From Clavelina lepadiformis (Eukaryota; Chordata; Ascidiacea; Aplousobranchia; Clavelinidae): a stretch of DNA of 64,000 nucleotides. The DNA lies in the NCBI RefSeq assembly GCF_947623445.1, contig NC_135243.1, positions 6,822,501 to 6,886,500 on the forward strand. Direction: 5' to 3'. This document shows positions 29,377-61,743 of this stretch, piece after piece. Positions within the stretch are counted from its first letter, which is position 1. Each line of letters opens with the position of its first letter. A model generated the notes under the pieces. The model was not told where the DNA came from and did no database searches. It worked only from the letters and a program-made list of their open reading frames with translations. The translations under genes and the position numbers were made by a program.

Positions 29377-30026
29377 ATGAGTAAATTGTTTTTCTTTGTT
29401 GGATTTCTACTTCTTGTCAGTTTGACTGAAATTTCGTCTATTTTCTCACATGGAGTTCACCGGTAAGACAATTCCTCAAATACAGTTGAGCAGTTAGATT
29501 TACTGCTTACATATACACACTTTTTTACGTTGTTTTTGGAACCTATATAAAGTATTTTTAAGCAGATATGAAAACAAGTCTCTATTTAATCATTTACAAA
29601 TAACAACTACCCACACATACGTCACAATAGAAGAAGGTGCTGTAGATTTATAATTATACTTTTAATAGCTTTTAAAAATTTGATCCATTTAATACATATG
29701 CAGAAAAGTGCGTCATGGCTATAATTTTATGGAAAAGATTGACACAGGTAAATTGTACGTTGTTCGGTGGACATTCTTGTTTAAATGGTAACTTTAAATT
29801 TTGTATTAATAAAAATTGATATATCTGCAATACTAATATGGTCTTACATTTTTGTACGTGTAGATTATGGTTTATATGTGAAATCATGATGACGTTTAAT
29901 CTCGAATGCTCTGCAATTTTATGAACAGAGATCAACAATGAATTAACGAACACGCAGCATCGAGCACGACGAAACGTTGCGGAAGAAGAAGACGATCATG
30001 AATTGGGCCCGCGCAATGGCAAATAA
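29377..30026 (+). CDS. Small secreted peptide precursor, copy 1
   Basis: Exons 29377-29462, 29704-29747 and 29929-30026 (phases 2 and 1) encode 75 residues. Exon 1 is a signal peptide starting MSKLFFFVGFLLL. Exon 2 adds a short basic segment (KVRHGYNFMEKIDT). Exon 3 gives EINNELTNTQH, the dibasic site R-A-R-R, NVAEEED, and the tail HELGPRN-Gly-Lys before TAA. A furin-type cut after RARR and C-terminal amidation at Gly are predicted. This copy lacks the cysteines of its sisters; Leu and Asn stand in their places. It is the most diverged of the closely linked copies in its signal peptide. I do not recognise the family; hormone-like or host-defence peptide are both possible. Confidence 0.75.
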
Positions 30027-30375
30027 AATATCATTTGCGTCAACTGTTTGGCGTTGTATTTATTTGCAAAGTTATTTGACGAATATAATAAATACGTCAG
30101 TGTGCACACCAAACGTTGCATCTCTTTAATCTGGAAAATATAATTAGGCATTAATTAATCGGAAATCACGTTGTAAAAATCGTGAAAAACTTTTTATCTT
30201 TTCATGTTAAATTGCCTACTTCGTGTGCCACTGGCAAGTCAATTAAAGGTTTTTAGCAGTTACGCACATATACAGCGTTGTATATCATTAGAGTGCGTAC
30301 ACTTGTTCAGCACACAGCACGGTATAACAGTGTAGATTGTCAGTTGAAATAACCTTTGTTTGAAATCGAAGCAAA

Positions 30376-31038
30376 ATGAACAAATTGCTTTTCTTCGTTG
30401 GACTTCTACTTCTTCTCAGTTTCACTGAAGTTTCGTCGTTCAACGGTGGACCTCCCGGGTAAGATGTTATTTTGTACAACCAATTGATCAGTTGCGTTAG
30501 TTGTTTACAAACATAAATTTATGCTTATGAGACTTAACACAATGTTTTAAGCAACAGATTAAAAGGTTAAACGTATCTTTCAACCACTAAAAATAACGTT
30601 ACACACTTGCTACGATGAATACAAGTGTTAAAGATTTATAACTTTGTACTTTAAATAACTTTTTAACACTTTGATTTATTCAATGTAACATGTAGAAAAT
30701 TGCGTCCTGGCTATACTTTAATGGAAAGGATTAACACAGGTAAACTCTATGTATTGCTTTGTACTTTGTTCATGTGACGTTCGTGTTTATATAATAACTT
30801 TAAATTTTGTTTTGATAAAAAAAGATATATCGGCGATACTAATATGGTCTTACGTTTTTGTACGTGTAGATTATGGTTTATATGTGAAATCATGATGGCG
30901 TTTAATCTCGAATATTTTGCAATTTTATGAACAGAGATCAGCAATGAATTAACCGACACACAAGATCGAGCAAGACGAAACGTTGCCGAAGAAAAAGACG
31001 GTGATTGGCCTGGATGCGCGCCTAGTTGTCGCAAATAA
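30376..31038 (+). CDS. Small secreted peptide precursor, copy 2
   Basis: Exons 30376-30458, 30696-30739 and 30935-31038 give 76 residues. The signal peptide MNKLLFFVGLLLLLSFTEVSS is followed by FNGGPPG, exon 2 KLRPGYTLMERINT, then EISNELTDTQD, R-A-R-R and NVAEEKD. The tail is DWPGCAPSCRK: two cysteines three residues apart around a Pro, with Arg-Lys in place of the Gly-Lys amidation signal. Exon borders match all other copies. Its upstream flank keeps AAATCACGTTGTAAAA but lacks the dyad element found in the other copies. Confidence 0.8.
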
Positions 31039-31457
31039 AATTCCTTTGTGTCAATAGGTTGTCAGTGTAATTTTTTGCAAAGTTATTTGGCGAATCTAAT
31101 GAATATAACAATGTGCACACCAAATCATGCTTCTCTTTAATTTGGAAAATATGATTACTCATTCAGACGACCGTGAAATTAGCCAAATAATATCAAAAAT
31201 AATAAATAAAAAAAGTATTCAACTATATACCGGTGTTTGAAAACACGAGTTATAGAGCAAAAAAAGGAAGAAATTCAGTTTTAAAAAATTACCTATAATT
31301 GTTGACCTATATCAACAATTATAGCAGAGCAATTATAATGCCCTAAAAAATTAATTTAAATTTGAGTTGGATTATCTCAAAGTAGGTTTGGATACTTGCT
31401 GTATGTGAATGTTGCAGAGGCCAAAAAAGTGAAAAAATACATTTTCATTTTCCTAAA

Positions 31458-31479
31458 ATATCAAATCGTGATTTGTTAG
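31458..31479. promoter_or_regulatory. Dyad element upstream of peptide gene 3
   Basis: ATATCAAATCGTGATTTGTTAG, holding the arms CAAATC and GATTTG, about 250 bases before the start codon at 31727. Confidence 0.45.
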
Positions 31480-31726
31480 TTCCCCTGTCAGCTAAATCTG
31501 TTGATACAGAAATCACGTTGTAAAAAATTGGGAAAAAGAATTATATCTTTTTATGTTAAATCGCCTATTTCTTGTGCCCTTCACAAATCAGTTAAAGGCT
31601 TTTAACAGTGACGCACATATACAGCATTGCATATATAATTAGAGTGCGTATACTTGCTCAGCACACAACTGGGCATAATAACGTAGATTGTCAGTTGAAA
31701 TAATCTTTGTGTGAAATCGAAGCAAA

Positions 31727-32382
31727 ATGAACAAATTGCTTTTCTTCGTTGGACTTCTACTTCTTCTCAGTTTCACTGAAGTTTCGTCGTTCAACGGTGG
31801 ACTTCGCGGGTAAGATGTTACTTTGTACAACCAATTGATCAGTTGCGTTAGTTGCTTACAAACATAAATTTATGTTTATGAGACTTAACACAATGTTTTA
31901 AGCAACAGATTAAAAGGTTAAACGTATCTTTCATCCACTAAAAATGACGTTACACACTTGTTACGATGAAGACAAGTGTTAAAGATTTATAACTATTTAC
32001 TTTAAATAGCTTTTTAACACTTTGATTTGTTCAATGCAACATGTAGAAAATTGCGTCCTGGCTATAATTTAAAGGAAAGGATTAACACAGGTAAACTCTA
32101 TGTATTGCTATGTACTTTGTTCATGTGACGTTCGTGTTTAAATGGTAACTTTAAATTTTGTATTAAAGAAATAGATATATCTGCAATACTAATATGGTTT
32201 TACATTTTTGTACGTGTAGATTATGGTTTGTATGTAAAATCATGATTGCATTTAATCTCGAATGTTCTGCAATTTTATGAACAGAGATCAACAACGAATT
32301 AACCGACACACAAGATCGAGCAAGACGAAGTGTTGCCAAAGAAAAAGACGAAAAAAGATTCGAGCCTAAATATGGCAAATAA
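31727..32382 (+). CDS. Small secreted peptide precursor, copy 3
   Basis: Exons 31727-31809, 32047-32090 and 32285-32382 give 74 residues. Signal peptide and propeptide match copy 2 (SFNGGLRG, KLRPGYNLKERINT, EINNELTDTQD, R-A-R-R, SVAKEKD). The tail is EKRFEPKY-Gly-Lys: Phe and Tyr occupy the two cysteine positions, the central Pro is kept, and the Gly-Lys amidation signal is present. A second dibasic pair (K-R) could release a shorter FEPKY-amide. Confidence 0.8.
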
Positions 32383-32908
32383 AATACCATTTGTGTCAAT
32401 AGGTTGGCAGTGTAATTTTTGCAAAGTTGTTTGGCGAAAGTAATAAATATGACAATGTGCACACCCAATCATGCATCTCTTTAATTAGGAAAATATGATT
32501 ACTCATTCAGACGACCGTGAAATTAGCCAAATAATGTCAAAAATAATAAATAAATAAATTATTCAACTATATACCGGTGTTTGGATACACGAGTTATAGA
32601 GCAAAAAAAAGGAAGAAATTCAGTTTTAAGAAATTACCCAATAGGTTTCTAGAACGTGAAATCAATAATATTGCTTTCTTTTGTTGACAATAAAGAAGCA
32701 TCATACAGACACCCCCTGACCACACTTTGGGTGCTTTGCAACATCTAGTAAATATGACAACTTTGAACGGATATACACTGCATTGTGTGTTTTGTTAAGT
32801 ATATGACATAAATGCTTGAGTTAAGTTTGATTGTTCAAGGCAAAAGAAATGATCAGTTCAAATATACCAAACACAAAACACACAGCATTGTCTTTCCGAT
32901 ATGATATG

Positions 32909-32930
32909 ATATGATATGATAAGATACATT
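32909..32930. repeat. ATATG pentamer microsatellite
   Basis: Four to five ATATG repeats; shorter versions occur in the paralogous flanks near 38800 and 49675. Confidence 0.8.
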
Positions 32931-32977
32931 ACGATATCCTTAAAAAGTAACAACGAAAACATTTATCACGTATTTAA

Positions 32978-33172
32978 TTGTTTATCAGCTTACAATGCGA
33001 CGATTTGTTTAAGCAAACATTGACGTCTGAACTCAATTCATCATCCCAGCAAGCAAACAGCACGATAACGCATGTTCCGACAAGCTTTTGCGTTTGGATC
33101 AGAGTGTTAAGACAAATGTTTCTTTCTTTCCGCTTCTTCACATCTGCTTCTTTTATTCACGAGATAAATTGA
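32978..33172. repeat. 195-bp downstream block, copy 1
   Basis: Part of the 3' flank of a peptide-gene unit. It is repeated at 38881-39075 and 49759-49953 and is open in one frame on each strand in all three copies. The plus frame begins at TTG rather than ATG and the copies are too alike for openness to show selection, so I do not call a gene. Confidence 0.6.
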
Positions 33173-33405
33173 TGATAAGTGACAAAGTGACATAGCAGTA
33201 CTATCATTTCATTGAATCATTTGCTTGCTATGCGTTGAAATATACGTTTGTTAACTGTCCTGCTAGATGTTCGTAAATCGTTTGTATTTACCAGTAGTTA
33301 ACTGAATAATGTGGTGGTAGCGTAAATATAACTCTAAATTGTTTACCTGTAACAGCAATAATTGTAGAAAAGTTGTATAAATTTGTTGATTTCAAAGTCA
33401 CTTAC

Positions 33406-33490
33406 CCGATTATTCCAACTCCATACCACCCAGAAACCTCAGTCAAACTCAAAACAAGTAAAAGTCCAACAAAGAAAAACAGTTGTTCAT
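33406..33490 (-). pseudogene. Inverted, diverged peptide-gene exon 1
   Basis: Read on the minus strand, 33490-33406 aligns with exon 1 of the peptide family: a start codon after GAAGCAAA, a FVGLLL-like stretch and a GTAAGT donor. The frame is not intact compared with the others and no matching exons 2-3 were found further down the minus strand. It is an old inverted copy. Confidence 0.65.
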
Positions 33491-34111
33491 TTTGCTTCAA
33501 GTTTAAACAAATGTGACTTTAACAGTCGTTAACACTGTTATAAACAAATCAGAACGCAGAGAAATTCAAGAATTAAAATTCTATTTACATGCGGTGTTGC
33601 GTGTGCAACAAACACTGCTAATGAATTATAGTGTTACACAATTCACTTTTTCGATAAAACACGAATTTGACAAGAAATGATTGCGCTTAATCACATTGGC
33701 CTTCAACGTGGTTTTGAAGACATCTGGATTACGTTTCAACATCCCATTATAAGAAATACCGCAATAAAATCCGTTATGATTTACCTGTTTTGTAAGCATT
33801 TAGAGAATTTGGTGATATTTTAACGGCGTGCACTAATTTCATATGTACTCACGTTGACTTAACAAATATTTTCATGGGTTTAAGGGTCTTTGCTACAATA
33901 CAGGAGCTCGGAAAGTTGGAACAAGCGTTCATTTTCTCTTTTATTGAATAACAATTTAACCTATATAAACAATGATAGCAGAGCAATTATAATGCCCTAA
34001 AAAATTAATTTAAATTTGGGTTGGATTATCTCAAAGTGTGTTTGGATACTTGCTGTATGTGAATGTTGCAGGGCCCAAAAAAGTGAAAAAATACATCTTC
34101 ATTTTCCTAAA

Positions 34112-34133
34112 ATATCAAATCGTGATTTGTTAG
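34112..34133. promoter_or_regulatory. Dyad element upstream of peptide gene 4
   Basis: ATATCAAATCGTGATTTGTTAG, about 250 bases before the start codon at 34380. A CATATAAT string near 34286 could be the TATA box. Confidence 0.45.
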
Positions 34134-34379: not shown

Positions 34380-35031
34380 ATGAACAAATTGCTTTTCTTC
34401 GTTGGACTTCTACTTCTTCTCAGTTTCACTGAAGTTTCGTCGTTCAACAATGGTGGACTTCGCGGGTAAGATGTTACTTTGTACAACCAATTGATCAGTT
34501 GCGTTAGTTGCTTACAGGCATAAATTTTAACACGATGCTTATGAGACTTAATACAATGTTTTAAGCAACAGATTAAAAGATTAAGCCTATTTTTCAACCA
34601 CTAAAAATGATGTTACACACTTGTTACGATGAATACAAATGTTAAAGATTTATAAGTTTGTACTTTAAATAGCTTTTTAACCCTTTGATTTGTTCAATGC
34701 AACATGTAGAAGAGTACTTCATGGCTATGATTTAAAGGAAAGGATTAAAACAGGTAAACTGCTTGTATTGCTATGTACTTTGTTCATGTGACGTTCGTGT
34801 TTAAATGGTAATTTTAAAAATTGATATATCTGCAATATTGATATGGTTTTATATTTTTGTACGTGTAGATTATGGTTTATATGTGAAACCATGATGGCGT
34901 TTAATCTCGAATGTTTTGCAATTTTATGAACAGAGATCAGCAATGAATTAACCGACACACAGGATCGAGCACGACGAAATGTTGCCGAAGAAAAAGACAG
35001 TTATGGACCGCCTAGTGGGATGTCCGCCTAG
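34380..35031 (+). CDS. Small secreted peptide precursor, copy 4
   Basis: Exons 34380-34465, 34710-34753 and 34934-35031 give 75 residues: the common signal peptide, SFNNGGLRG, exon 2 RVLHGYDLKERIKT, EISNELTDTQD, R-A-R-R, NVAEEKD, and the tail SYGPPSGMSA with neither cysteines nor Gly-Lys. The DNA of the tail resembles copy 8, whose C-x-P-x-C Gly-Lys codons lie here in another frame, so the tail seems to have changed frame rather than been replaced. It may still be expressed as a different peptide. Confidence 0.7.
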
Positions 35032-35363: not shown

Positions 35364-35452
35364 GCAATGAATTAACCGACACACAGGATCGAGTAAGGCG
35401 AAATGTTGCGGAAGAACAAGACGTTGAATTGGGCCCGCGCAGTGGCAAATAA
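35364..35452 (+). pseudogene. Orphan peptide-gene exon 3
   Basis: About 330 bases after copy 4 a lone exon-3 body appears (NELTDTQD, R-V-R-R, NVAEEQD, tail VELGPRS-Gly-Lys). It is joined to flank sequence that elsewhere continues into TAAAGAAGCATC. The join leaves a TTTCTTTTGTTGACAG acceptor-like string, but splicing there would be out of phase. The tail is closest to that of copy 1. Confidence 0.75.
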
Positions 35453-37651: not shown

Positions 37652-38303
37652 ATGAACAAATTGCTTTTCTTCGTTGGACTTCTACTTCTTCTCAGTTTCA
37701 CTGAAGTTTCGTCGTTCAACAATGGTGGACTTCGCGGGTAAGATGTTACTTTGTACAACCAATTGATCTGTTGCGTTAGTTGCTTACAAACATAAACTTT
37801 AACACGGTGCTTATGAGACTTAATACAATGGTTTGAGCAACAGATTAAACGATTAAAAGTATCTTTCAACTACTAAAAATGATGTTACACACTTGTTACG
37901 ATGAAGACAAGTGTTAAAGATTTATAACTATATACTTTAAATAGCTTTTTAACACTTTGATTTATTCAATGCAACATGTAGAAAAGTGCTTCATGGCTAT
38001 GATTTAAAGGAAAGGATTAAAACAGGTAAACTGCTTGTACTGCTATGTACTTTGTTCGGGGACATTCTTGTTTAAATGGTAATTTTAAAAATAGATATAT
38101 CTGCAATATTGATATGGTTTTATATTTTTGTACGTGTAGATTATGGTTTTATTTGTGATATCATGATGGCGTTTAATCTCGAATGTTTTGCAATTTTATG
38201 AACAGAGATCAGCAATGAATTAACCGACACACAGGATCGAGCAAGACGAAACGTTGCCGAAGAAAGTGACGGTTATGAGTGCCCGCGTTGCGTTATGCGT
38301 TGA
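37652..38303 (+). CDS. Small secreted peptide precursor, copy 5
   Basis: Exons 37652-37737, 37982-38025 and 38206-38303 give 75 residues: the common signal peptide, SFNNGGLRG, KVLHGYDLKERIKT, EISNELTDTQD, R-A-R-R and NVAEESD. The tail GYECPRCVMR has a tighter C-x-x-C pair and no Gly-Lys. The end of the usual 3' flank is deleted right after the tail, so the terminal VMR is read from formerly non-coding DNA. Confidence 0.75.
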
Positions 38304-40219: not shown

Positions 40220-40220
40220 C

Positions 40221-41069: not shown

Positions 41070-41280
41070 TTCCGCTGCTAACTAAGTCTGTTCATATGAA
41101 AATCACGTTTTGGAAGAAAATTTGTCTGCATCGTGACTTGTTGCAAATCCAGCTGAAGGGTTTTAACAGTGACGCAATCATAGCTATGTGTACAAGCAGA
41201 TTGCGTTTTCGTGCACGGCCCAATGTACGTCATTACAGATCAGATCAGCAGGCGAAGCATATCTTTGAAACTAAAGCAAC

Positions 41281-41938
41281 ATGAACAAATTCATTTTCAT
41301 CGTTGAACTTCTACTTATGGTCAGTGTGACTGAGGTTTTTTGGGTTTCTGCTAAATATCCCAGACAAGAGTTTCCCTCAAATATACTCCATAATGAGTAG
41401 TTTATACGTTTATTGCTTAGAGCCTTAGACATATACATAAATTTCACGCGATGTTTTTGGGGCTTGAAATTATTTAACAGCAGACAAAAAACAACATATA
41501 TCGATTTTAATCAAGAACAAATGACAATTTGAAACTTGTTATAATAAAAGAATTTCAAGATTTTGTGGTTTTATTTGGTATTTTTAATAAATTTCACTTT
41601 CACTTTCTTCTTACATATCAATATGCAAAAGACCAGTATATACTGATTTCAGATATCCAAGTTTCAGGAAAAAGTTTGACACAGGTCAATTTTATCACAT
41701 AAAAAATATTCTTTATCAAAAAAAAATATTGATCTGTTTTACATAGACAACAAAAAAAATTAATCTGCGAAAGTGGTGAGGTTTTTCATATTTTATGTAG
41801 TTTAGTTTATTTTAGCATTTCAATAACTTCAACTTCAATTTCTTCACAACCTGTGGAATTTTATGAGCAGTTATCAGCAATGAATTAACCGGCACAGTAA
41901 ACCGAGCTCGACGAAATGTTGCAGAAGGAAGCTCATGA
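41281..41938 (+). pseudogene. Diverged peptide-gene copy 6, probably dead
   Basis: Exon 1 begins MNKFIFIVELLLMVSVTEV, but the splice donor seen in all intact copies is not recognisable. Exon 2-like sequence lies near 41652-41684. Exon 3 (41871-41938) still encodes ISNELTGTV, R-A-R-R and NVAEG and ends early without cysteines or Gly-Lys. It is paralogous to the copy at 51077. Confidence 0.65.
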
Positions 41939-42079
41939 TTGGAGGCCGCGGGGTAGCAAATAACTTTTCATGTGCAGTAACAGTTTATCGGTGTAATTGC
42001 TTCATTACGTATAACACATTTTGACAAACAATTGCAACAAATAAACATAATAAACCTAACAATATGCACACCAAATCAA

Positions 42080-42945
42080 GTATCTTTTGGAATGTATTTA
42101 TTCATTCAAACTGCATGCCGTGAATTTAGTGATCACAGTTTCTGATTGTTCAGTCAGTTATTTATTTTTTGTTTAGTTATTTCTTTTTAGTTGAAGTTGC
42201 CTAATAGTTCTCGGAATATTCATTTAATTATAGTTATTCGCAGTTCGAAAAAGTTACTTCATATCGCTTTTTATTTGCTGTTAAAGTCAAAACTTAAAAT
42301 TTATTCTTAAGTATTTGTGCAATTTTGTATACATTCGTGTAAATTTAAATAAATACAGTACATAACAATACAATCTAAAACAAGTTCATAAAACTCATAA
42401 GAAAAACTTAGTTCATACAAAATAAAGCATAATTAATTTTAATTGAATTCAAACAATATCTTATAAATTAAAATAACTTCCAATTAATTTATATAACAAG
42501 TTCAAAAAAATAAAATGCGCAATAAACTTGAAACGCACTTGAATACGTAGACCTGTGGCATAAACGAAGATTTGAACACAAGGTATCAAGAAGAACAGCC
42601 CCACCGCCCCAGCTTGTTCCTATATAGTACCAATCGTCTTATCAAGGCGGTCCGAGATGCAAGTGTCTTGTGTAATGCTGATTTCATGCATAAGTAGTTT
42701 TTCCAAATTTGCACGTATTATGAGGTGCACATCGATCGTTAAGCTTCTTGCATTTTGACGAAGCATTTTGGAAAATATAAGTTTACATAAGTATAAGCTC
42801 TAGGTTTACAAAGAAACCTTGCTTATATAATTATAGCTATAATAAGCTACTGCATTAACATATTCAATTTCTCCTCACTCAAAGCTCTTCATAATCTATT
42901 CGCCAAGTTTTTCATTTTCTATTTTAACAGCAAAATTGCTTTCAG
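42080..42945. other. No gene seen
   Basis: Very AT-rich spacer, repeated at about 51840-52705 in the second duplication unit. The upstream exons of the protease piece were looked for here and not found. Confidence 0.4.
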
Positions 42946-43286
42946 GGAGAATGTTCTGATACGTGCCAAGGAGCAGCGGAGGTCCTCTGACATGTTCCGA
43001 TTGTGAAAAAATGCTGTTGTGGGGCATTACAAGCTGGATTGTCAAATGTGCATTTTCCGCAAAACCCGGTGTGTATATATTCTCTGGTCTATCTAGCTAC
43101 ATCAGATGGTCGTACATAGTCATGGAAAAGCAGTTGGAAAATAGCAAAAAAACTTCAAAGATTTTTGTCAGAAACCAAAATTGTAGCGTTTTAAAAGTGT
43201 TAGACATTTATGTAGATATTGTAAGCTGTTTAACCATTTTTAAATCCATGATTTTAACGTTACTTGATGTGGCCGCTTTGGTTTAA
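42946..43286 (+). pseudogene. Trypsin-like serine protease, last-exon pseudogene (copy A)
   Basis: After a TTTCAG acceptor the frame gives GECSDTCQG, then one base is missing within the G-D-S-G-G codons around the catalytic serine. From there the other frame gives GGPLTCSDCEKMLLWGITSW and KPGVYIFSGLSSYIRW, the usual end of an S1 protease domain. An Asp at the specificity position suggests a trypsin-like ancestor. No His- or Asp-bearing exon was found upstream. The copy at 52706 shares the same lesion. Confidence 0.75.
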
Positions 43287-44174
43287 ATTGAAAGTAAATG
43301 ATATTGTGATGTAATTAGTTGTATATTTTGCTATTAAAATCATTTAGACAGTAAAATCATGTTGCATTTTGAAGTATTTCAAATTTTTGTTAAAATAATC
43401 TTATAAGTTTCATAACTCTGCCCTTGTTTTTCACACAGCTAATCCTACAGTCACTTGTACGCCGCTGACCAATAATAGCAAAGAAATTAATGCATATAAG
43501 TCAGGCTTAAAGCAAATATACTTATATCATAAATTTACTTACAATACCAGATTGAATTCAAAATTTTCAATACTAACTTTTCAACATTCTATTTTTAGTG
43601 TATATGGTAAACTTCAAAAATAAACGACTTTTGTAAAAATAAGAATTCCAAACTTGTAAAATATTTTTTGTTTCTTATAATTTTTTTTTGTTATGTTTTA
43701 CATTGAACTCCACACCCGGAAGCATTGCTGCCAACTCCGTTTTAATGTAGTTTCTAAAAATTTTTCTCTCAAAGCTACATAGCTTTTAATAAATAATGGA
43801 GTATTATTCTGAGTATAAAAAGTCAGATACATTCAAGCTCAATTTATTTTCTTGGTTTCATTAATCTAGTTGCGTAACAAATTAACAATTGCGTCAAACC
43901 TCCAACTGAAGAGTTACGTTAGCTTATACAAATGCAGAGGCTACTTGGCGCTAGAATTTTCAACCGAATGCTCAATCGCATCTGGTAAAAGTAAAATTTG
44001 TTGCTCTTTAGGATTAACGTATGACAACTTTGCAGTGGTATGATAAACAAGATTAAATTAAAATTGAGGGATTAATAAGTGGGCATACGCCTTTATGTGC
44101 TGCACTTGGATTGCCGGCTGCTGCCTTCCTATGGTTACGTAGGAGGAAATGCTATAGAAAATGTTTCATACATT
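43287..44174. other. Spacer between protease piece and SLC17 copy A
   Basis: Repeated at 53047-53627. About 310 bp near 43890-44185 is present only here and accounts for the different last codons of the two transporter copies. Confidence 0.5.
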
Positions 44175-46838
44175 TTACAATGATGGTTCTGTTTTTTTTT
44201 CGGCTATATCGTTATCCGATTGTTCTTTTGGTTCCTTTATCAAATACCTCAATTCTTGATTTTCACCTGTAAAACCGCAATTCAAGTTTCAAATGTTCAA
44301 ACAAGAAGGTTTTGAGATTGAAATAAAAGTAACAACAAAGTTTCTTGTGTGTTCAATAACATACTTCTCGTTAAATCCTCGCCTTTTGCCCAAGTTTGTA
44401 GTTGATCTGATGCAAAGATAAGAAAAATGACCGCTCCAAATGCGCCAATTGCTGCCGCTAACCAAAACACCTTTTTCCAGCTTGACACAGACTACACATG
44501 ACAAAGAAAAAGCTTTTGCACTCGTTCGTCCAAACGTTCTCAAAATAGTTACCAGCTGACATATGAGCCTGTGAAAGACACTGTGCACAAGACAGTGATA
44601 TTACATGACGTTACTTGTCGAAAACTACAGCTTCTGTATTGCTAAGTATTTTAAGTGGTTCAGCGTAAGCTTATTCCCGGTCAATTTATCTTCATTCTAT
44701 TCAATGTCGATTAATTCATGCTTACAGCTAGTAACAAATTGTTTTTAACTCGGTTGAGAAGTTTAGGGTTGAACCGAAAAAGGTTGATTTTATTTACCAG
44801 ATTGCATTTGATCAGAATGAGTTTAAAAGAGTCATCCAACACTTCAAACATAACTTACGTTGTCACTTAGAAGCGCTCCTGATATTTGCGGTGCAACAAA
44901 ACCCATCAAGGAAGCTAACGTGTTTGATACGGAATAAATGATTCCACCAAAACGTGGTGCAATATCAACAAAGGAACAAGCGTGTCCTGAAGCTAGGGCA
45001 TTGAAACAAAAAGGCATTTTGTTTATAAGTAAAGTTTTTAACAAAACTTCATTAATAGTCAAAAACTTATACTTGATATCGCACAAAAAATAAATAAATA
45101 ATACACGTAAGTATACAAAGTACTTACAAGTAAGACCGAGAATTCCCCCTGAAACTGATATCAGGGCAACGGCCGGCCAAGTATTGCAGTTCAAGTAACC
45201 TAGAACCACCAATGAAATGCTGGATATAGTCATAGGCAACACAGAAGCAACCTATATTACAAATACGAAAATTTTAAGTCAAAGAAACGTTTCAATAAAA
45301 CGGACAGATAACTAAATCTTGTTCAGTTTCAGTTCAGTTTACTGCGATCTTATATTAATGGGTAAAGTTTGCTTCTTACCTTTCGAACAGTAATGACTCT
45401 CGTTAGTCTTTTAGTAAGGATCATATCAGCAATGAAACTTCCGCCAAGGTTTAAAATGAGTCTAATTAGGAACGGAATAGCAGCAAGAAAACCGACCTGT
45501 TGAAATCTGGTATTTTGAATCAATCTTTCTTTTTGTTTGCTATAACCGTATAACGTTTGTTTTTTAACCGATGAAGAAATTTATCATAAAATAAATATGT
45601 GACTAACGTTAAATTTATAAAAATACGGACTATTTTATAAATTTAGCAAGTCAAATTTTGCAGGTTTATTCCCAACTTTTATTTTTCTTTCTCCTTTTCA
45701 AAAGGGTACATTTTGATTTTCATTTTTGCTTTCTTTTTCAACATATTTACATATAGGATGCAAATGAGATTAATGAAATATTTTCTGTCTCAACATATGG
45801 CTATTTCTTTTTTTCAACGTTCGATAAATGTGTGACTTTCAAGAAAAGCAAACACAACCTAAACAAGACTTAAATGGTGATAAATCGAGACAAAGACCGA
45901 GATAAAATAGCTTTAAGCGTCCACCTGGCTTTAAAGCAATAAGTTACTCTTCACGGCTACACTCGGCGGCGCTATACTATCCTGGTAATGCTTTTGCACA
46001 AAAAAAAAACAATATAAATGTCTATCGGAAAATGTGTAACGTATACGGAAGAGCAAAAAACTCCGCTTGTAACATATTAGCGACATATGAAATTTTTAAA
46101 CACATTTTGGTTCCTGTCTTTCAGTTTTTATGAACAGCGAGTTATAGAAAGTTATATAAAAGAATAAGAACCCACAGATTTAATTTCCAAACCGTGGACC
46201 CTTGCAATGTACGTCGGGGCCATTATGCCGAGCGAGAACGTCAAATAATTCTCGGTCAGATGTGAAGCAATCGTCGCCCATACTGGAACGGATCTTGCCA
46301 TTTTAAGCCAAGGTATTGCTTCTGTTTCCCTTGGAACCTAAACAAAAATTGCTGAGAGAATAAGAACGAATAAATACAACATTTTAAAAGCTGTTTTTGT
46401 ATTGTTTGGTAAATCTGTGTTGGCACCTTGTCACCGTGTATGCTTTGTTCAATGTAGTCCTTTTCCTGACGTGATATCCGTGGGTGTTCGGCCGGTGTAT
46501 TATGAATTATGGACAACCAAACTACTGAGAATAGTATCCCAATAGCTCCTGCGTAAAGCAATTCCAGTATTACGTATGAGAAAAGGCAAGTAGTGCAAAT
46601 TAATGACATATTTTTACGAGGAGTCTAGAAATGTTAATACGTGCGAATAAAACGATAAATGACCTGTAATGTAAAAAGACGCCTCCCATCCCAAAGAGCT
46701 CACTATTCCGCCGACAACGGGATACACAACAAAGTACCCCATGGATAACCCTGACAGAGTGATGGAAACCAAACGACTTCTCTCCAGCGGGGGAGCCCAG
46801 TTACCCCAAGCAACCCATGCGGTTGGAAACGTCACACC
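44175..46838 (-). pseudogene. SLC17-type transporter, 5'-truncated copy A (eight last exons)
   Basis: Minus-strand exons 46838-46664, 46548-46427, 46337-46176, 45496-45380, 45251-45128, 44992-44859, 44491-44365 and 44266-44175 join in phase and match the last eight exons of the copy at 53628-58026 almost base for base. They start at GVTFPTAWVAW and end KKTEPSL. The three upstream exons are absent: similarity to the long copy stops inside the intron near 47352, where peptide-gene sequence takes over. All eight exons stay open and their splice sites are usable, so the duplication is young. It could be expressed only if an upstream exon was captured. As it stands it lacks the first membrane spans. 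Confidence 0.8.
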
Positions 46839-47522
46839 CTGAATCATACATAAAAGGTGGTTTAGTTAGCTTGTGGTCAGTGGTCAGTTACTTGTATGTG
46901 TATGTGTAGTATAAATCTCAAACTGTTGAGGTCGATAGGTTATCGTGTATAAGGAAAACATAATAAAAAAGTAATCCTTTTATATGTCAATCGCCTGACA
47001 CAGAAATGTGTCTTTAGGCAAGCAGTTATTAGGTTTCGAAGTTATACCAAAAGAATGTAGCAAGTTTAGAAATCTTATTAATTTGGTAAATATATATTTT
47101 TTTAATGCGTAAAATATTTTGCTATGTTGGTTCTTTTCATATTCGTTCCGCGCAAAAAAATATTCATTATAGTTCCTATTTCAATCTAGTTGTGAAATTA
47201 ATTTCAAGCAAAACTTTTACGTTGGTATTTGTTTATTGACGACAAATATTAGCATTGACGACAGCATTAGGTATAGAATACTGCTTCAGCAAATATTCTT
47301 TGTTTATAAAGCTCACACATATATTTCTCTGGGGCGCAATTGTTAGGTGGTAGTTTGTTAACGTTTGTTAACTGTCCTGCTAGATGTTCGTAAATCGTTT
47401 GTATTTACCAGTAGTTAACTGAATAATGTGGTGGTAGCGTAAATATAACTCTAAATTGTTTACCTGTAACAGCAATAATTGTAGAAAAGTTGTATAAATT
47501 TGTTGATTTCAAAGTCACTTAC

Positions 47523-47607
47523 CCGATTATTCCAACTCCATACCACCCAGAAACCTCAGTCAAACTCAAAACAAGTAAAAGTCCAACAAAGAAAAACAGT
47601 TGTTCAT
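47523..47607 (-). pseudogene. Inverted, diverged peptide-gene exon 1, second copy
   Basis: Identical to 33406-33490; it travelled with the 890-bp tract. Confidence 0.65.
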
Positions 47608-48228
47608 TTTGCTTCAAGTTTAAACAAATGTGACTTTAACAGTCGTTAACACTGTTATAAACAAAACAGAACGCAGAGAAATTCAAGAATTAAAATTCTA
47701 TTTACATGCGGTGTTGCGTGTGCAACAAACACTGCTAATGAATTATAGTGTTACACAATTCACTTTTTCGATAAAACACGAATTTGACAAGAAATGATTG
47801 CGCTTAATCACATTGGCCTTCAACGTGGTTTTGAAGACATCTGGATTACGTTTCAACATCCCATTATAAGAAATACCGCAATAAAATCCGTTATGATTTA
47901 CCTGTTTTGTAAGCATTTAGAGAATTTGGTGATATTTTAACGGCGTGCACTAATTTCATATGTACTCACGTTGACTTAACAAATATTTTCATGGGTTTAA
48001 GGGTCTTTGCTACAATACAGGAGCTCGGAAAGTTGGAACAAGCGTTCATTTTCTCTTTTATTGAATAACAATTTAACCTATATAAACAATGATAGCAGAG
48101 CAATTATAATGCCCTAAAAAATTAATTTAAATTTGGGTTGGATTATCTCAAAGTGTGTTTGGATACTTGCTGTATGTGAATGTTGCAGGGCCCAAAAAAG
48201 TGAAAAAATACATCTTCATTTTCCTAAA

Positions 48229-48494: not shown

Positions 48495-49151
48495 ATGAAC
48501 AAATTGCTTTTCTTCGTTGGACTTCTGCTTCTTCTCAGTTTCACTGAAGTTTCGTCGTTTCACAGTCCCGGGTAAGATGTTACTTTGTACAACCAATTGA
48601 TCAGTTGCGTTAGTTGCTTACAAACATAAATTTATGTTTATGAGACTTAATACAATGTTTTAAGTAGCATATTAAAAGGCTAAACGTATCTTTCATCCAC
48701 TAAAAATAACGTTACACACTTGTTACGATGAAGACAAGTGTTAAAGGTTTATAAGTTTGTACATTAAAAAGCTTTTTAACACTTTGATTTATTCAATGTA
48801 ACATGTAGGAAATTACGTCATGGCGATGATTTAAAGGAAAGGATTAACACAGGTAAACCGCTTGTATTGCTATGTACTTTGTTCATGTGACGTTCTTGTT
48901 TATATAATAACTTTAAATTTTGTTTTGATAAAAATAGATATATCGGCAATACTATGATGGTTTTACATTTTTGTACGTGTAGATTATGGTTTATATGTGC
49001 AATCATGATGGCGTTTAATCTCAAATATTTTGCTATTTTATGAACAGAGATCAGCAATGAATTAACTGAGACACAGGATCGAGCAAGACGAAACGTTGCC
49101 AAAGAAAAAGACGGTTATGGGCCTGGATGCCCGCCCAGATGTGGCAAATAA
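48495..49151 (+). CDS. Small secreted peptide precursor, copy 8, C-P-P-R-C amide type
   Basis: Exons 48495-48571, 48809-48852 and 49048-49151 give 74 residues. After the common signal peptide come SFHSPG, KLRHGDDLKERINT, EISNELTETQD, R-A-R-R and NVAKEKD. The tail is GYGPGCPPRC-Gly-Lys. Cutting after RARR, a disulfide between the two Cys, and Gly-Lys processing would give a 17-residue peptide with a five-residue ring at an amidated C terminus. This is the clearest member of the family for the predicted processing route. Confidence 0.82.
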
Positions 49152-50866: not shown

Positions 50867-51076
50867 TTCCGCTGCTAGCTAAGTCTGTTCATATGAAAAT
50901 TACGTTTTGGAAGAAAAGTTGTCTGCATCGTGACTTGTTGCAAACCCAGCAGGAGGTTTTACCAGTGACGCAATCATAGCTATGTGTACAAGCAGCCTGC
51001 GTTTTTGTGCACGATCCAATGTACAGCATAACAGAACAGATCAACAGGCGAAACATTTCTTTGAAACTAAAGGAAA

Positions 51077-51740
51077 ACCAACAAATTATTATTTTTCATC
51101 GTTGGACTTCTACTTGTTGTCAGTTTGACTGAGGTTTTTTCGGTTTCTGCTAAATATCCCAGACAAGAGTTTCCCTCAAATATACTCCATAATGAGTAGT
51201 TACGTTTATTACTTAGACATATACATAAATTTCACGCGATGTATTTGGGGCTTGAAATTTTTTAAACAGCAGATAAAAAACAACATATATCGATTTTAAT
51301 CAAGAACAAATGACAATTAGAAAGTTGTTATAATAAAAGAATTTCAAGATTTTGTGGTTTTAATTGGTATTTTTAATAATTTCACTTTGACTTTTTTCTT
51401 ACATCACAACATGCAGAAGCCAAGTATATACTGGTTTCAGATTTCCAAGTTTCAGGAAAAAAGTTGGAGCAGTCAAATTTTATCTCCTAAAAAATGTTCT
51501 TTATCAAATAAAATATTGATCTGTTTTACATAGACAACAAAAATTAATTAATCTGCGAAAGTGGTGAGGTTTTTCATATCTTACGTATTTCCGTTTATTT
51601 TAGCATTATAATAACATTTCGCCTCAACCTGTGGAATTTTATGAACAGTTATCAGCAATGAATTAACCGGCACAGAAAACCGAACACGATGAAACGTTGC
51701 AGAAGGAAATGCCGATGATTGGAGGCCGCGGGGTGGCAAA
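51077..51740 (+). pseudogene. Diverged peptide-gene copy 9, broken
   Basis: Paralogue of the copy at 41281 in the second duplication unit. The start codon and the reading frame of exon 3 are not maintained. Signal-peptide-like (FIVGLLLVVSLTEV) and exon-3-like sequence remain recognisable. Confidence 0.65.
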
Positions 51741-52705
51741 TAACCATGTGCAGTAACAGTTTATCAGTGTAATTACTTTATTTTGTATAACACATTTTGA
51801 CAGGCAATTGCAAATAAACATAATAAACCTAACAATATGCACCCCAAACCAAGTATCTTTTGGAATGTAATTATTCATTCAAACTGCATGCCGTGAATTT
51901 GGTGATCACAGTTTCTGATTGTTCAGTCAGTTATTTATTTTCTGTTTAGTTATTTCTTTTTAGTTGAAGTTGAAGTTGGAAGTTAATAGTTCTCGGAATA
52001 TTTATTTAATTATAGTTATTCGCAGTTCGAAAAAGTTACTTCATATCGCTTTTTATTTGCTGTTAAAGTCAAAACTTAAAATTTATTGTTAAGTATTTGT
52101 GCAATTTTGTATACATTCATGTAAATTTAAATAAATACAGTACATAACAATACAATCTAAAACAAGTTCATAGAACTCATAAGAAAAACTTAGTTTATAC
52201 AAAATAAACCATGATTAATTTTAATTGAATTCAAACAATATCTTATAAATTAAAATAATTTCCAACTAATTTATATAACAAGTTCAAAAAAATAAAATGC
52301 GCAATAAACTTGAAACGCACTTGAATAGGTAGACCTGTGGCATAAACGAAGATTTGAACACAAGGCATCAAGAAGAGTAGTCCCACCGCCCCAGCTTGTT
52401 CCCACCAATCGTCTTATCAAGGCGGTCCCAGATGCAAGTTTCTTGTGTAATGCTGATTTCATGCATAAGTAATTTTTCCAAATTCGCAGGTATTATGATG
52501 TGCGCATCGTTAAGCGTCTTGCTTTTTGACGAAGTATTTTAGAAAATATAGGTTGTGAGCTCTAAGTTTACAAAGAAACCTTACCTATAATTATAGCGAT
52601 AATAAGCTACTGCATTAACATACTCAACTTCTCCTCACTCAGAGCTCTTCATAATCTACTCGCCAAGTTTTGCATTTTCTATTTTAACAGCAAAATTGCT
52701 TACAG
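51741..52705. other. No gene seen
   Basis: Counterpart of 42080-42945: AT-rich, similar throughout, no exon recognised. Confidence 0.4.
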
Positions 52706-53046
52706 GGAGAATGCTCTGATACGTGCCAAGGGGCAGCGGACGTCCTCTGACATGTTCCGATTGTGAAAAAATTCTGTTGTGGGGCATTACAAGCTGGAAT
52801 GTCAAATGTGCGTTTTCCGCAAAACCCGGTGTGTATATATTCTCTGGTCTATCTGGCTACATCAGATTGTTGTACATAGACATGGAAAAGCAGTTGGAAA
52901 ATAGCAAAAAAACTTCAAAGATATTTGTCAGAAACCAAAATTGTAGCGTTTTAAAAGTGTTAGACATTTATGTAGATATGGTAAGCTGTTTAACCATTTT
53001 TAAATCCATGATTTTAACGTTACTTGATGTGGCCGCTTTGGTTTAA
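52706..53046 (+). pseudogene. Trypsin-like serine protease, last-exon pseudogene (copy B)
   Basis: Same structure as 42946-43286 and same missing base within the G-D-S-G-G codons, so the lesion is older than the duplication. It keeps GPLTCSDCEKILLWGITSW and KPGVYIFSGLSGYI with a few extra substitutions. Confidence 0.75.
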
Positions 53047-53627
53047 ATTGAAAGTAAATGATATTGTGATGTAATTAGTTGTATATTTTGCTATTTAAAT
53101 CATTTAGACAGTAAAATCATGTTGCATTTTGAAGTATTTCAAATTTTTGTTAAACTAATCTTATAATTTTCGTAACTCTGCCCTTGCTTTTCACACTGCT
53201 AATCCTACAGTCACTTGTACGCCGCTGACCAATAATAGCAGGGCAATTAATGCATATAAGTCAGGCTTAAAGCAGATATACTTATATCATAAATTTACTT
53301 ACAATACCAGATTGAATTCAAAATTTTCAATACTAACTTTTCAACATTCTATTTTTAGTGTATATGGTAAACTTAAAAAATAAACAACTTTTGTAAAAAT
53401 AAGAATTCCAAACTTGTAAAACATTTTCTGTTTCTTATAATTTATTTTTTTGTGATGTTTTACATTGAACTCGACACCCGGAAGAATTGCTGCCAACTCC
53501 GTGTTAATGTAGTTTCTAAACATTTTTCTCTCAGAGCTACATAGCTTTTAATAAATAATGGAGTATTAGTCTGAGTATAGAAAGGTAGATACACTCATGC
53601 TCAATTTATATTCTTGGTTTGATTAAA

Positions 53628-56600
53628 CTATTTGCGTAGCAATTGCGATTCTGTTTTTTTTTCGGCTATATCGTTATCCCATTGTTCTTTTGGTTCCTTT
53701 ATCAAATACCTCAATTCTTGCTTTTCATCTGTAAAAACGCAATTCAAGTTTCAAATGTTCAAACAAGAAGATTTTAAGATTGAAATAAAAGTAACAACAA
53801 AGTTTCTTTTGTGTTCAATAACATACTTCTCGTTAAATCCTCGCCTTTTGCCCAAGTTTGTAGTTGATCTGATGCAAAGATAAGAAAAATGACTGCTCCA
53901 AATGCGCCAATTGCTGCCGCTAACCAAAACACCTTCTTCCAGCTTGACACAGACTACACATGACAAAGAAAAAGCTTTTGCACTCGTTCGTCCAAACGTT
54001 CTCAAAATAGTTACCAGCTGACATATGAGCCTGTGAAAGACACTGTGCACAAGACAGTGATATTACATGACGTTACTTGTCGAAAACTACAGCTTTTGTA
54101 TTGCTAAGTATTTTAAGTGGTTCAGCGTAAGCTTATTCCCGGTCAACTTGTCTTCATTCTGTTCAATGTCGATTAATTCATGCTTATAGCTAGTAACAAA
54201 TTGTTTTTAACTCGGTTGAGAAGTTTAGGGTTGAACCGAAAAAGTTTGATTTTATTTGCCAGATTGTATTTGACCAGAATGAGTTTAAAGGAGCCATCCA
54301 ACACTTCAAACATAACTTACGTTGTCACTTAGAAGTGCTCCTGATATTTGCGGTGCAACAAAACCCATCAAGGAAGCTAACGTGTTTGATACGGAATAAA
54401 TGATTCCACCAAAACGTGGTGCAATATCAACAAAGGAACAAGCGTGTCCTGAAGCTAAGGCATTGAAACAAAAAGGCATTTTGTTTATAAGTGAAGTTTT
54501 TAAAAAAACTTCATTAATATATAGCCGTAAACTTATACTTGATATCGCACCAAAAATAAATAAATAATACACGCAAGTATACAAAGTACTTACAAGTAAG
54601 ACCGAGAATTCCCCCTGAAACTGATATCAGGGCAACGGCCGGCCAAGTATTGCAGTTCAAGTAACCTAGAACCACCAATGAAATGCTGGATATAGTCATA
54701 GGCAACACAGAAGCAACCTATATTATAAAACGAAAATTTTAAGTCAAAGAAACGTTTCAATAAAACGGACAGATAAGTAAATCATGTTCAGTTTCAGTTC
54801 AGTTTACTGCGATATTATATTAATGGGTAAAGTTTGCTTCTTACCTTTCGAACAGTAATGACTCTCGTTAGTCTTTTAGTAAGGATCATATCAGCAATGA
54901 AACTTCCGCCAAGGTTTAAAATGAGTCTAATTAGGAACGGAATAGCAGCAAGAAAACCGACCTGTTGAAATCTGGTATTGTGAATCAATCTTTCTTTTTG
55001 TTTGTCGGTATATGTTGCCGGCAATAAGAACAAACGTGTGCACTAAATTAGCCACATCGTCGTTGCTATAACGATTGTCTTTGAAACGATGAAGAAATTT
55101 ATCATAAAATAAATTCGTGACTTACGTTAAATTTATAAAAATGCGGAGTATTTTATAAATTTAGCAAGTCAAATTTTGCAGGGTTACTTCCAACTTTTAT
55201 TTTTCTTTCTCCTTTTCAAAAGGGTACATTTTGTGTTTCATTTTTGCTTTCTTTTCCAACATATTTACATATAGGATGCAAATGAGATTAATGAAATATT
55301 TTCTGTCTCAACATATGGCTATTTCTTTTTTTCAACGTTCAATAAATGTGTGACTTTCAAGAAAAGCAAACACAACCTAAACAAGACTTAAATGGTGATA
55401 AATCGAGACAAAGACCGAGATAAAATAGCTTTAAGCGTCCACCTGGCTTTAAAGCAATAAGTTACTCTTCACGGCTACACTCGGCGGCGCTATACTATCC
55501 TGGTAATGCTTTTGCACAAAAAAAAAACAATATAAATGTCTATCGGAAAATGTGTAACGTATACGGAAGAGCAAAAAACTCCGCTTGTAACATATTAGCG
55601 ACATATGAAATTTTTAAACACATTTTGGTTCCTGTCTTTCAGTTTTTATGAACAGCGAGTTATAGAAAGTTATATAAAAGAATAAGAACCTACAGATTTA
55701 ATTTCCAAACCGTGAACCCTTGCAATGTACGTCGGGGCCATTATGCCGAGCGAGAACGTCAAATAATTCTCAGTCAGATGTGAAGCAATCGTCGCCCATA
55801 CTGGAACGGATTTTGCCATTTTAAGCCAAGGTATTGCTTCTGTTTCCCTTGGAACCTAAACAAAAATTGCTGAGAGAATAAGAACGAATAAATACAACAT
55901 TTTAAAAGCTGTTTTTGTATTGTTTGGTAAATCTGTGTTGGCACCTTGTCACCGTGTATGCTTTGTTCAATGTAGTCCTTTTCCTGACGTGATATCCGTG
56001 GGTGTTCTGACGGTGTATTATGAATTATGGACAACCAAACTACTGAGAAAAGTATCCCAATAGCTCCTGCGTAAAGCAATTCCAGTATTACGTATGAGAA
56101 AAGGCAAGTAGTGCAAATTCATGACATATTTTTACGAGGAGTCTAGAAATGTTAATACGTGCGAATAAAACGATAAATGACCTGTAATGTAAAAAGACGC
56201 CTCCCATCCCAAAGAGCTCACTATTCCGCCGACAACGGGATACACAACAAAGTACCCCATGGATAACCCTGACAGAGTGATGGAAACCAAACGACTTCTC
56301 TCCAGCGGGGGGGCCCAGTTACCCCAAGCAACCCATGCGGTTGGAAACGTCACACCCTGAATTATACATAAAAGGTGGTTTAGTTAGCTTGTGGTCAGTG
56401 GTCAGTTACTTATATGTGTATGTGTAGTATAAAGCTCATACTGTTGAGGTTGATAGGTTATCGTGTAAGGAAAACATAATAGAAAAGTAATCCTTTTAAA
56501 ATATTTTACTATGTTGGTTCTTTTCATATTCGTTCCGCGCAAAAAAATATTCATTATAGTTCCTATTTCAATCTAGTTGTGAAATTAATTTCAAGCAAAA

Positions 56601-58026: not shown

Positions 58027-60930
58027 CTGTGAAAATCAAAGCATAAAACTATAATTTGGTCTCATTGGTTGTGAGTTGACTTGTTAGATCTCAAGTATCA
58101 AGTTTTAGCCATGCATTTTTTCTCATACAAAAATCTAAATGTGCGTTTTCAACTCTCTGTGATTGACAACAAGGACAGAAGAAATTACTGTAAGTACGAA
58201 GCTGGAAGACATTGTTTATAATTGCGTTATGACAACCTGCTTTATCCATTTGCCAAACGGCTTTAGGCTCTCAAATGCTATAAGCTGCGGCTATAATTAC
58301 TTTTTAGAGCTTGTAAACAGGGGCAGCTTGTATTATTTTTAACGTCTTACAACATAACCATTAACATAACCATAACCATAACAAAAATGTTTTAAACGCT
58401 CTTGAAAAAAAATACTGTTTTTTCATGTAAAATTACCCGCAGTTCGGTCTATAACAATTTTTCTCCCGTTTTTACAAGAATGCGCATGGTCATATGCGTC
58501 ATACATATGCGTCATGGACTATCTGCAGTAAAATACCGGATTACCGGTTCATGAAACTTCATCGTATGTTACTGATGCAACTATAGGTTTTTTCACGTCT
58601 ACCAATATGCAAGGTATTCGTGTCCGCAGTAACATATACACTTTCCTGTCCTTATAGTTCATATCGGTTTCCATTTTCCTTCAGTTAGCTTGACTATATA
58701 ATCGTGCTCACAAAATCTTTGGCTTGAAAGACTGTGGAACTCTTTTTGCGGATGGCGTCCTAACCCTAGGTAGCACAAAAAATGCAGCACAAACTAATCA
58801 TTTGGGTGATTGGAAAAATCACAAAAAGGTGTATGGTTGTTGTTCCAGTAACGATACTTTGCGAACTAATGCTTGATAACGAAATTTTTGTAAATTTGTA
58901 AAACAGCAATCTAAAAGTAAATAAACTAACAATCAACCGAGAATCATGCGTTTAAAGGCAATGTAGTTTTGTACGTTGGCGGTATAGTTGAACCGAACAC
59001 ACTAGGCTACCATTGCAAAGCCCTTAAGCGAGATATGAATGACGCTTGCTTCTGTTCAGTGGCACTGGTAGACATTCGGTGCCACATACCGATACAAATA
59101 AAACAAGTAAAATATGTATAGGCTATCAATCGGAACTTGTACAATAGAAAAGTTCGGTAAACGAGGCTACAGAGGTGCGGAACCATCGCTGAGTTTAGGT
59201 CGTGCAAACACTTCTCTCCGTCCGAGAATAGAAAATGTGATACCATACCATAACATATCATTGCAAAACGAAGTGATAAAAAGCTGCGTTTGCAGTAATA
59301 AAATACCTCAAGTATGTTTGTGGTCTTTGAATGTACCGCCATTTTCGTAACTTTTCGACTTATTCTACTTCTACTAAAGCAAAAAAACAACTGGGCTGCA
59401 GCTAATTGTTAAATGACTCCTGTGTACACTTTATGATCACAAAATGCAGAATACCCAGAAGCGAAATACTAGTTCAATACAAATTCAGAATACCTGGAGG
59501 CGTAATATAATCTGAATTTACATTTTTTGATCTTTTTTTTACTACACCAAAACATGCAGCTATCATGTAAGTAATTATACTGAACGATTTTTGATGTAAG
59601 CTACTAATTCTACCCAATGTCAACATTTAGATGCTACATGAAATCTATTTGTTATACCGCTTCAATTACATGTTACGTTAAGCATACTGTACTTCGGCTG
59701 TCGGATCAGTGAATAAAAACGTTTCACAGCGTATAGGCTATTGCTGCTTGCGGTTACGCTATCGTTATAGGAAATAAAATTGTCCAATTCTAACCTAAAT
59801 TAGCCGTGTTTCCGAAATTTGAGAAACGTACGTCGAGATGTTTCCGTAGCAGCGACAGTTTTCTCCGTGCTATTTCACGCGTATATCACTTCACATTACG
59901 ATCAGCCTCACAGAATGTTCATGGTTGCGTAGTTTACGTCATGGTTCAACGGCAGAGCGCTGAGACTGTGCATGGTGGGCGGACTGTTTTTCCTATTTTG
60001 TCTTATCGTGACCTGCTAATGTCTGATAAGTATTTCCGCTCGTGAAAATTTAAAACAAGCGTCAGCGCAACACATGCTATACCCTGAATATACTGTATAG
60101 AAAGATTCAAATCTTGCAAATCATGGCATAAAAATTTTGGAACGCGTTTCTTCAGCATTATATACGTTGAAATACGCCAATTCGTTTGAACTATCAATTA
60201 TATCAGAAAAGGTATTAATAATCGTATTTTCCATTCACTACAGAGTAAGCATGATGGCTGCCACAATATAGCACTCCATATTGCGTTTATTATACTTTGT
60301 TGATAACAGAAAAGTTAGCTTTACAGTACCTGTTTCAACTGCAAAATCTATTACTTAGCCCATGTCCGCTTTTTTCGCCAGCTCCACTATGAATAGCGTA
60401 GGCTAAGCCATAAAGGCCTGTTGGCTTGAAAATTCATAGCCCGTCACATACAGTGACTGCAAAGTTTCCTGTTTGGGGAACACAGTACTTCTGTGACGAC
60501 GACAGATGGTGCGTGCAGAAACACAACTATTGGCTTGAAAACGGTATGCCTAGTCAACATTAGCAGCATTATACAGTTGTCTTTATATATAATTGTTGGA
60601 AGCACAAAATACCATTATGAAAACCAAGCTCGTGACGTGCGATTATGAACTCACATGAAACGTAAAAAATTATCACTGCAGCAGCATTGACAGCAGCATG
60701 CACGCACACAAATGTCATAAAGTCATCCTTCATGCGTGCAACCTATATCCTGACGTTTTCAGCAATTGTTTCTCTTATTTATATAGTATATACATGCCAA
60801 TTTTAGAGAATAGACAGAATTGCTTATAGCATGCTTATTTATAGCTGGCTTACATAGGCAGTTGCATATGTATATCAAAAGAATTGCATGAAATAGAAAA
60901 CGAAATGTCGAATGTTTCTTTCAGTCGACT
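58027..60930. other. No gene recognised; 5' flank of the SLC17 gene
   Basis: The missing first exon and promoter of the minus-strand SLC17 gene should lie here. I could not single out a signal-like ATG exon ending in phase 0. Short repeats (CAGAATACC-AGAAGCG near 59450 and CAGAATACCTGGAGGCG near 59487) and ATATGCGTCAT words near 58495 are present. Confidence 0.4.
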
Positions 60931-60945
60931 TATCAAATCGTGATT
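60931..60945. promoter_or_regulatory. Dyad element core upstream of peptide gene 10
   Basis: TATCAAATCGTGATT, about 190 bases before the start codon at 61127. The following AAATTACG string is also kept. Most other upstream sequence has diverged, which makes the match informative. Confidence 0.5.
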
Positions 60946-61126
60946 GACCAAGGCAGGAAGCAGTTTTCGCTGTGCGGAAATTACGCTGTGGCCGAACCGC
61001 AAAAGAAGACACCCATCTCATGGTGATAAATTGTCTCCGGCTATGTAGGCTACTTGTTTAGCAACAGTACGACATAACAATGCAAGTCGGTCAGTTGAAA
61101 TATTCTTTGTTTGAAACCGAAACGAA

Positions 61127-61743
61127 ATGAACAAATTGCTTTTCTTCGTTGGACTTCTACTTCTTGTCAGTTTCATTGAAGTTTCGTCGCTCAACACTCG
61201 CATTCGCAAGTAAGGCGTTATTTGAAACGTTTAATTTAGCGGCTGCGTTTATTGCTTACTTAAAAAAAACTTTAACGAGGTGTACTTGGGACTTAAAAAC
61301 AATTTACAAGCGGCAGATCGAAATTTTAGGCTTGGTTTTAAACTTTTTATATGTAGTGGCACAAGATATGGCTGAATAAATTTGTTTCTATACTTTAAAT
61401 AATATATTAATGCTTTAATTAATTCAATACAATATGCAACAGAGCGAATGTTCGGTATGGACTTAGTCATGCGAACAAGATTAACACAGGTAAGTGTAAG
61501 TGAGGCCTTTGTGTTTGAATTATCTTTTTTATGTTTTATTTTGATACATTCAAATAAAGCTGAAACAACGATAAGTTTCTAAATTCGCTTCATTAGTTTA
61601 GTTGATAGTAAGCATCGCAGAAATATTTCAATTCAACTTATGCATTTTTATGAACAGAGACGCGAAGAAAATTGGTCGACGCAAATAATCGAGTAGCAAG
61701 AAGCATCGCGGAATATCAGCCCAGAAGGAAAGGCTTGGAATAA
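61127..61743 (+). CDS. Small secreted peptide precursor, copy 10, distant member
   Basis: Exons 61127-61209, 61443-61489 and 61658-61743 with the same phases (2 and 1) give 71 residues. The signal peptide MNKLLFFVGLLLLVSFIEVSS is nearly identical to the array copies, but the rest is strongly diverged: LNTRIRK, ANVRYGLSHANKINT, then ETRRKLVDANN, an R-V-A-R cleavage site, and the tail SIAEYQPRRKGLE with no cysteines or terminal Gly-Lys. Exon 2 is one codon longer. A slowly changing signal exon with a fast-changing product is what one expects of a diversifying peptide family. Confidence 0.75.

Follow-up and report, generated by a model that had tools for sequence, protein, structure and literature searches.

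Frog skin host-defence peptides of the temporin/brevinin type derive from multigene families of precursors, which according to passages of PMC7106915 combine a conserved signal peptide and an acidic propiece with a hypervariable C-terminal mature part. From ascidians (Styela/Halocynthia), the clavanins, styelins and halocidin are presented in parts of PMC7460354 as small, helical antimicrobial peptides, and the C-terminally amidated clavanins are made by blood cells of Styela clava. Neuromedin U is introduced in PMC9853942 as the deuterostome ortholog of the PRXamides; PMC5818035 lists peptide systems lost in Ciona without mentioning neuromedin in its text. For the ascidian Clavelina lepadiformis a genome of 210.1 Mb with 9 chromosomes and 102 scaffolds has been published (PMC10884593). 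We analysed a stretch of 64,000 nucleotides from this species (the window), which holds an array of short precursor genes.

Between positions 29377 and 61743 the plus strand of the window carries seven intact three-exon genes (Table 1). An open frame, GT/AG introns and the intron phases 2 then 1 are found in all seven copies, as had been proposed from the DNA letters, and the boundaries given in that original prediction fall exactly on the first ATG and the last stop. The precursors are short as proposed, although their length is 71–76 residues instead of 74–76. From the N-terminus, each precursor consists of a signal-like hydrophobic segment, a short variable stretch, a propeptide, an R-x-x-R motif, a spacer and a copy-specific tail. 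The presence of the signal-like segment and its constraint are evident from sequence comparison. The motif, a furin-type site, reads R-A-R-R in six copies and R-V-A-R in c9, just as first described, whereas the NVAEEKD-like, mostly acidic spacer is present in six of the seven copies and not in all of them.

Table 1 Genes and further pieces of the peptide family in the window (positions are those of the window)
Feature	Position (strand)	Exons	Tail	Remarks
Copy c1	29377..30026 (+)	29377-29462, 29704-29747, 29929-30026	NVAEEEDDHELGPRNGK	mosaic
Copy c2	30376..31038 (+)	30376-30458, 30696-30739, 30935-31038	NVAEEKDGDWPGCAPSCRK	
Copy c3	31727..32382 (+)	31727-31809, 32047-32090, 32285-32382	SVAKEKDEKRFEPKYGK	
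Copy c4	34380..35031 (+)	34380-34465, 34710-34753, 34934-35031	NVAEEKDSYGPPSGMSA	
Copy c5	37652..38303 (+)	37652-37737, 37982-38025, 38206-38303	NVAEESDGYECPRCVMR	protein identical to P0001
Copy c7	48495..49151 (+)	48495-48571, 48809-48852, 49048-49151	NVAKEKDGYGPGCPPRCGK	
Copy c9	61127..61743 (+)	61127-61209, 61443-61489, 61658-61743	SIAEYQPRRKGLE	most divergent; R-V-A-R
Orphan exon 3	35365..35452 (+)		NVAEEQDVELGPRSGK	behind c4
Dead copy	41281..41963 (+)	exon 1-like at 41281, exon 3-like at ~41870-41963		frame broken
Dead copy	51052..51743 (+)		WRPRGGK (readable)	start codon lost, stop in cleavage-site region
Exon 1 relic	33433..33542 (-)			frame broken
Exon 1 relic	47550..47659 (-)			inside 300-base piece identical to that at 33 kb
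Fragment	26604..26761 (+)			last part of exon 1 with first part of intron 1

With its own place excluded, a leader query of 134 bases detected five other copies at 86–96% identity (E 1.7e-56 to 2.5e-36). It missed c1, whose whole unit aligns at 73–75%. These E values, together with the constraint on the signal relative to the introns described below, rule out a chance resemblance of the copies. In the following, c2, c3, c4, c5 and c7 are referred to as core copies, c1 and c9 as non-core.

Besides the seven genes the window contains six further pieces of the family. The orphan exon 3 is nearest to exon 3 of c1, with 11 mismatches in 86 positions. The original prediction mentioned neither this exon nor the dead copies, the relics and the fragment at 26604-26761, and it also lacked the amidation-type ends, the Cys pairs, the comparison of tails with introns and the mosaic c1 described below. 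Two identical pieces of 300 bases (33244-33543 and 47361-47660) lie 14 kb apart, each with a minus-strand exon 1 relic. The regions ~41200-46600 and 51000-56100 form a direct duplication with a spacing of 9.46–9.78 kb and are 94–98% alike in five sampled blocks. Each arm holds one of the two dead peptide copies together with a trypsin C-terminal exon, for which the stretch 42960-43286 scored Pfam E 3.4e-5. Both arms also hold a minus-strand gene which we take to be transporter-like, and a Pfam scan of two pieces returned no transporter match.

Among the five core copies only 1 of 63 signal-peptide columns is variable, compared to 76 of 416 intron columns (Fisher p 1.6e-4, in a test that treats sites as independent). 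By the same count the end of exon 1 (4/14), exon 2 (11/44) and the spacer (5/21) do not differ from the introns, and exon 3 up to R-A-R-R is not below them either (6/44, p 0.54). For the 10 core-copy pairs, which are non-independent and yield small numbers, pN/pS is 0.00 in the signal, 0.13 in exon 3 up to R-A-R-R, 0.63 in the spacer and, as a point estimate, 1.39 from the end of the signal through exon 2. The signal peptide had been called near-invariant, and indeed it is protein-identical in five of the seven copies; relative to these, c9 shows 2 nonsynonymous changes and c1 shows 6 nonsynonymous and 3 synonymous changes. The signal of the dead copy at 41 kb differs from that of c3 by 10.5 nonsynonymous and 2.5 synonymous changes.

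The tail, expected to vary in almost every copy, differs in all seven. Its divergence exceeds that of the introns in two of the three testable pairs, c2-c3 (11/30 vs. 30/431 mismatches, p 1.2e-5) and c3-c7 (11/30 vs. 37/431, p 6e-5), and is borderline in c2-c7 (6/36 vs. 31/432, p 0.054); the tail counts vary by alignment, as for c2-c3 with 11/30 in one and 15/30 in another. A broader figure (106/266 mismatches, 116 gap columns) was set aside, since it includes c4 and c5 and its alignment is doubtful. Codon rates by part of the precursor, a check suggested with the original prediction, gave 0.00 for the signal and 0.78 for the tail. The tail value is a point estimate over three pairs (c2, c3, c7); it leaves out c4 because of its frameshift, c5 because of its deletion and the non-core copies c1 and c9. 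At 0.78 the idea of a tail dN/dS above 1 was dropped, and the counts do not demonstrate that point changes were driven by diversifying selection.

G-K-stop, with P-[R/K]-x before it, closes four of the eight open tail exons, namely the orphan and those of c1, c3 and c7; the dead copy at 51 kb and the database protein P0002 likewise end in G-K. G-K at the end of a precursor is a classical amidation signal. The motif P-R-x-G-K occurs in c1, c7 and the orphan exon, c3 has P-K-Y instead, and c2, c4, c5 and c9 have neither this motif nor G-K, c2 ending in R-K. In the five tails compared in register (c1, c2, c3, c7 and the dead copy at 51 kb), the proline before the G-K-like end is encoded by CCG, CCT or CCC. 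Pfam copper monooxygenase domains gave 29 matches in the genome; this family covers the amidating enzyme as well as other enzymes.

As read from the aligned copies, part of the tail variety stems from indels, a frameshift, a deletion and exchange. In c4 a frameshift has put the tail into another frame than the GCPPRCGK-like end of c7, the end of the c5 tail was lost through a deletion extending to the 3′ UTR, and the tail of c9 is different. Compared to the five core copies, intron 1 of c1 is 34–38% diverged and intron 2 only 8–13% (p <= 6.2e-7 in each of the five comparisons). Since intron 1 looks old and intron 2 family-like, the 3′ half of c1 was probably exchanged or converted, and c1 is a mosaic of an old 5′ half and a family-like 3′ half. 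What stands of the diversifying peptide family originally proposed is thus the secreted-type architecture, the constrained leader and the variable end, but not point selection, and the events in c4 and c5 account for part of the variety.

Within the genome, all matches of four queries fall inside the window: 10 for leader DNA, 9 for tail-exon DNA, and 14 and 9, at E up to 10, for two precursor proteins. A dispersed repeat or transposon was rejected on these grounds. Each query missed some known copies, i.e. c1 and the dead copy at 41 kb with the leader query and c9 with the tail-exon query, and in the protein searches exon 1 of c1 reached only E 0.48 and 0.60, so distant members elsewhere in the genome could escape such searches. 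A profile of eight precursors, scored on 6144 word-sharing candidates out of 5.8 billion proteins, kept five proteins at E up to 10 (P0001–P0005). All are C. lepadiformis proteins from another assembly, and no relative outside this species was found, in line with the view that the ascidian family is an unrecognised one. A known Pfam family was likewise rejected: c1, c2, c7 and c9 (4/7 precursors) gave nothing over the cut-off in a scan covering E up to 10, in which filters drop most weak matches and short peptides are easily missed. The best solved-structure match of the one precursor searched had E 1.3. No description of the family appeared in titles or abstract openings among the literature matches listed, which include few subscription journals.

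Our best explanation, to which we assign a probability of about 0.62, is a tandem and so far C. lepadiformis-only family of secreted, furin-cut and partly amidated short prepropeptides. Secretion, cleavage and partial amidation would be the simplest reading of the precursor architecture. The signal peptide would bring each precursor into the secretory pathway, a furin-like convertase would cut after R-x-x-R, and a C-terminal peptide of 13–19 residues (before trimming) would be released. In the genes with G-K-stop, trimming of the lysine and conversion of the glycine would leave an amidated C-terminus; LGPRN-amide, FEPKY-amide and CPPRC-amide would be examples, and a disulfide might close CPPRC-amide. 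Varied tails would have come to stand behind a constrained front through tandem duplication, small indels and swapping of 3′ halves between copies. The released peptides would most likely act as extracellular ligands or defence peptides, and the amidation motif together with the mixed charge tips the balance slightly towards signalling. Against this explanation, the c4 frameshift and the c5 deletion could signal decay, and the fast look of the tails could come from gene conversion that evened out their flanks.

The family is an orphan, while the kind of system is already known. If our explanation holds, a colonial tunicate with well-known alkaloids would turn out to have, in addition, an orphan family of peptides that are probably secreted and in part amidated. 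The tandem copies are young, and their introns can still be aligned to serve as a neutral standard; they offer a compact case of a changing tail behind a constant front, and pose the question whether the end was changed by indels, 3′-half exchange or point selection.

The alternatives considered are not mutually exclusive. That the tails serve as antimicrobials or deterrents, with microbes or predators driving their diversification, overlaps with our best explanation and specifies the function; we consider it possible, though tentatively. This reading agrees with the tandem array, with Cys pairs in the tails of c2, c5 and c7, and with the overall pattern of the frog peptides described in PMC7106915, which share the conserved signal, the hypervariable C-terminal mature part and the multigene organization. 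In Clavelina, however, the acidic stretch comes after the cleavage site and not before it, the charge is mixed, and sequence relatives were found within Clavelina only. Net positive charge is predicted for only three of nine released peptides (range -4 to +2), mildly against a standard antimicrobial peptide. The amidated clavanins of Styela clava blood cells (PMC7460354) likewise speak for a small defence peptide in an ascidian. Nevertheless, the ascidian peptides treated in these passages are described as helical, and it is by this description and by the profile search that clavanins, styelins and halocidin are set apart from the present family.

Another possibility, which we consider unlikely, is that the stretch from the signal to R-A-R-R is the working part and that the tail is discarded and drifts without constraint. 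The strongest codon constraint indeed lies in the signal and in exon 3 up to R-A-R-R, and the c4 frameshift and the c5 deletion fit this reading. Drift alone should nevertheless stay at or below intron divergence, which the tail exceeds in two of three pairs, and P-[R/K]-x-G-K is kept in four open tail exons. Furthermore, the c5 protein is identical to P0001 of the other protein set. As regards possible variation between animals, the tails of c2, c5 and c9 recur there unchanged, P0005 differing from c9 at three signal-peptide residues only. The tail of P0002 is altered, being c3-like and ending in FEPRWGK, and this protein has a post-signal stretch absent from the window.

We regard cross-unit splicing, in which a transcript spanning several units pairs leader exons and tail exon of different units, as improbable. 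The observation suggesting it is P0004, which corresponds letter for letter to exons 1-2 of c1 plus exon 3 of c2, and the intron phases agree in all seven genes. Read on from exon 1 of c4 (phase 2), the orphan exon 3 stays in frame, but not when read on from exon 2. Such joining, by run-through splicing or by frequent recombination near the similar intron 2, could turn the array, including the orphan exon, into a combinatorial peptide library, an equally improbable extension in which the released peptide set would differ between cells or between animals. P0004 may, however, stem from recombination or from a wrong gene model just as well as from run-through splicing: had the two genes recombined in the other assembly, the product would be the same protein, and an automatic model is suggested by P0003, a truncated c3-like model with one residue different from c3 that reads into intron 2. 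As for the orphan exon, its acceptor may have arisen by chance; it sits in sequence that elsewhere follows the units.

Descent from the PRXamide/neuromedin U peptides as a branch of this lineage, with PRN-amide and PRS-amide ends acting on a neuromedin U type receptor, is very improbable. In its favour are the P-R-x-G-K ends, seen in c1 and c7, in the orphan exon, in P0002 and in the dead copy at 51 kb, and the orthology of neuromedin U to the PRXamides noted above; vertebrate neuromedin U ends in PRN-amide. Against it, the resemblance covers three residues, the CPPRC and FEPKY ends fit poorly, each precursor holds a single C-terminal peptide in a variable context, and c1, c2, c7 and c9 gave no peptide-family match in the Pfam scan with its filtering of weak matches.

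Three further places in the rest of the window gave minor observations. At 63076-63564 a minus-strand ORF shows a weak reverse-transcriptase zinc-binding match, and at 14627-14974 a weak fibronectin type III match was obtained, both under the curated cut-off. The minus-strand ORFs at 967-1272 and 3641-4090 have a repeated C-terminal stretch in common.
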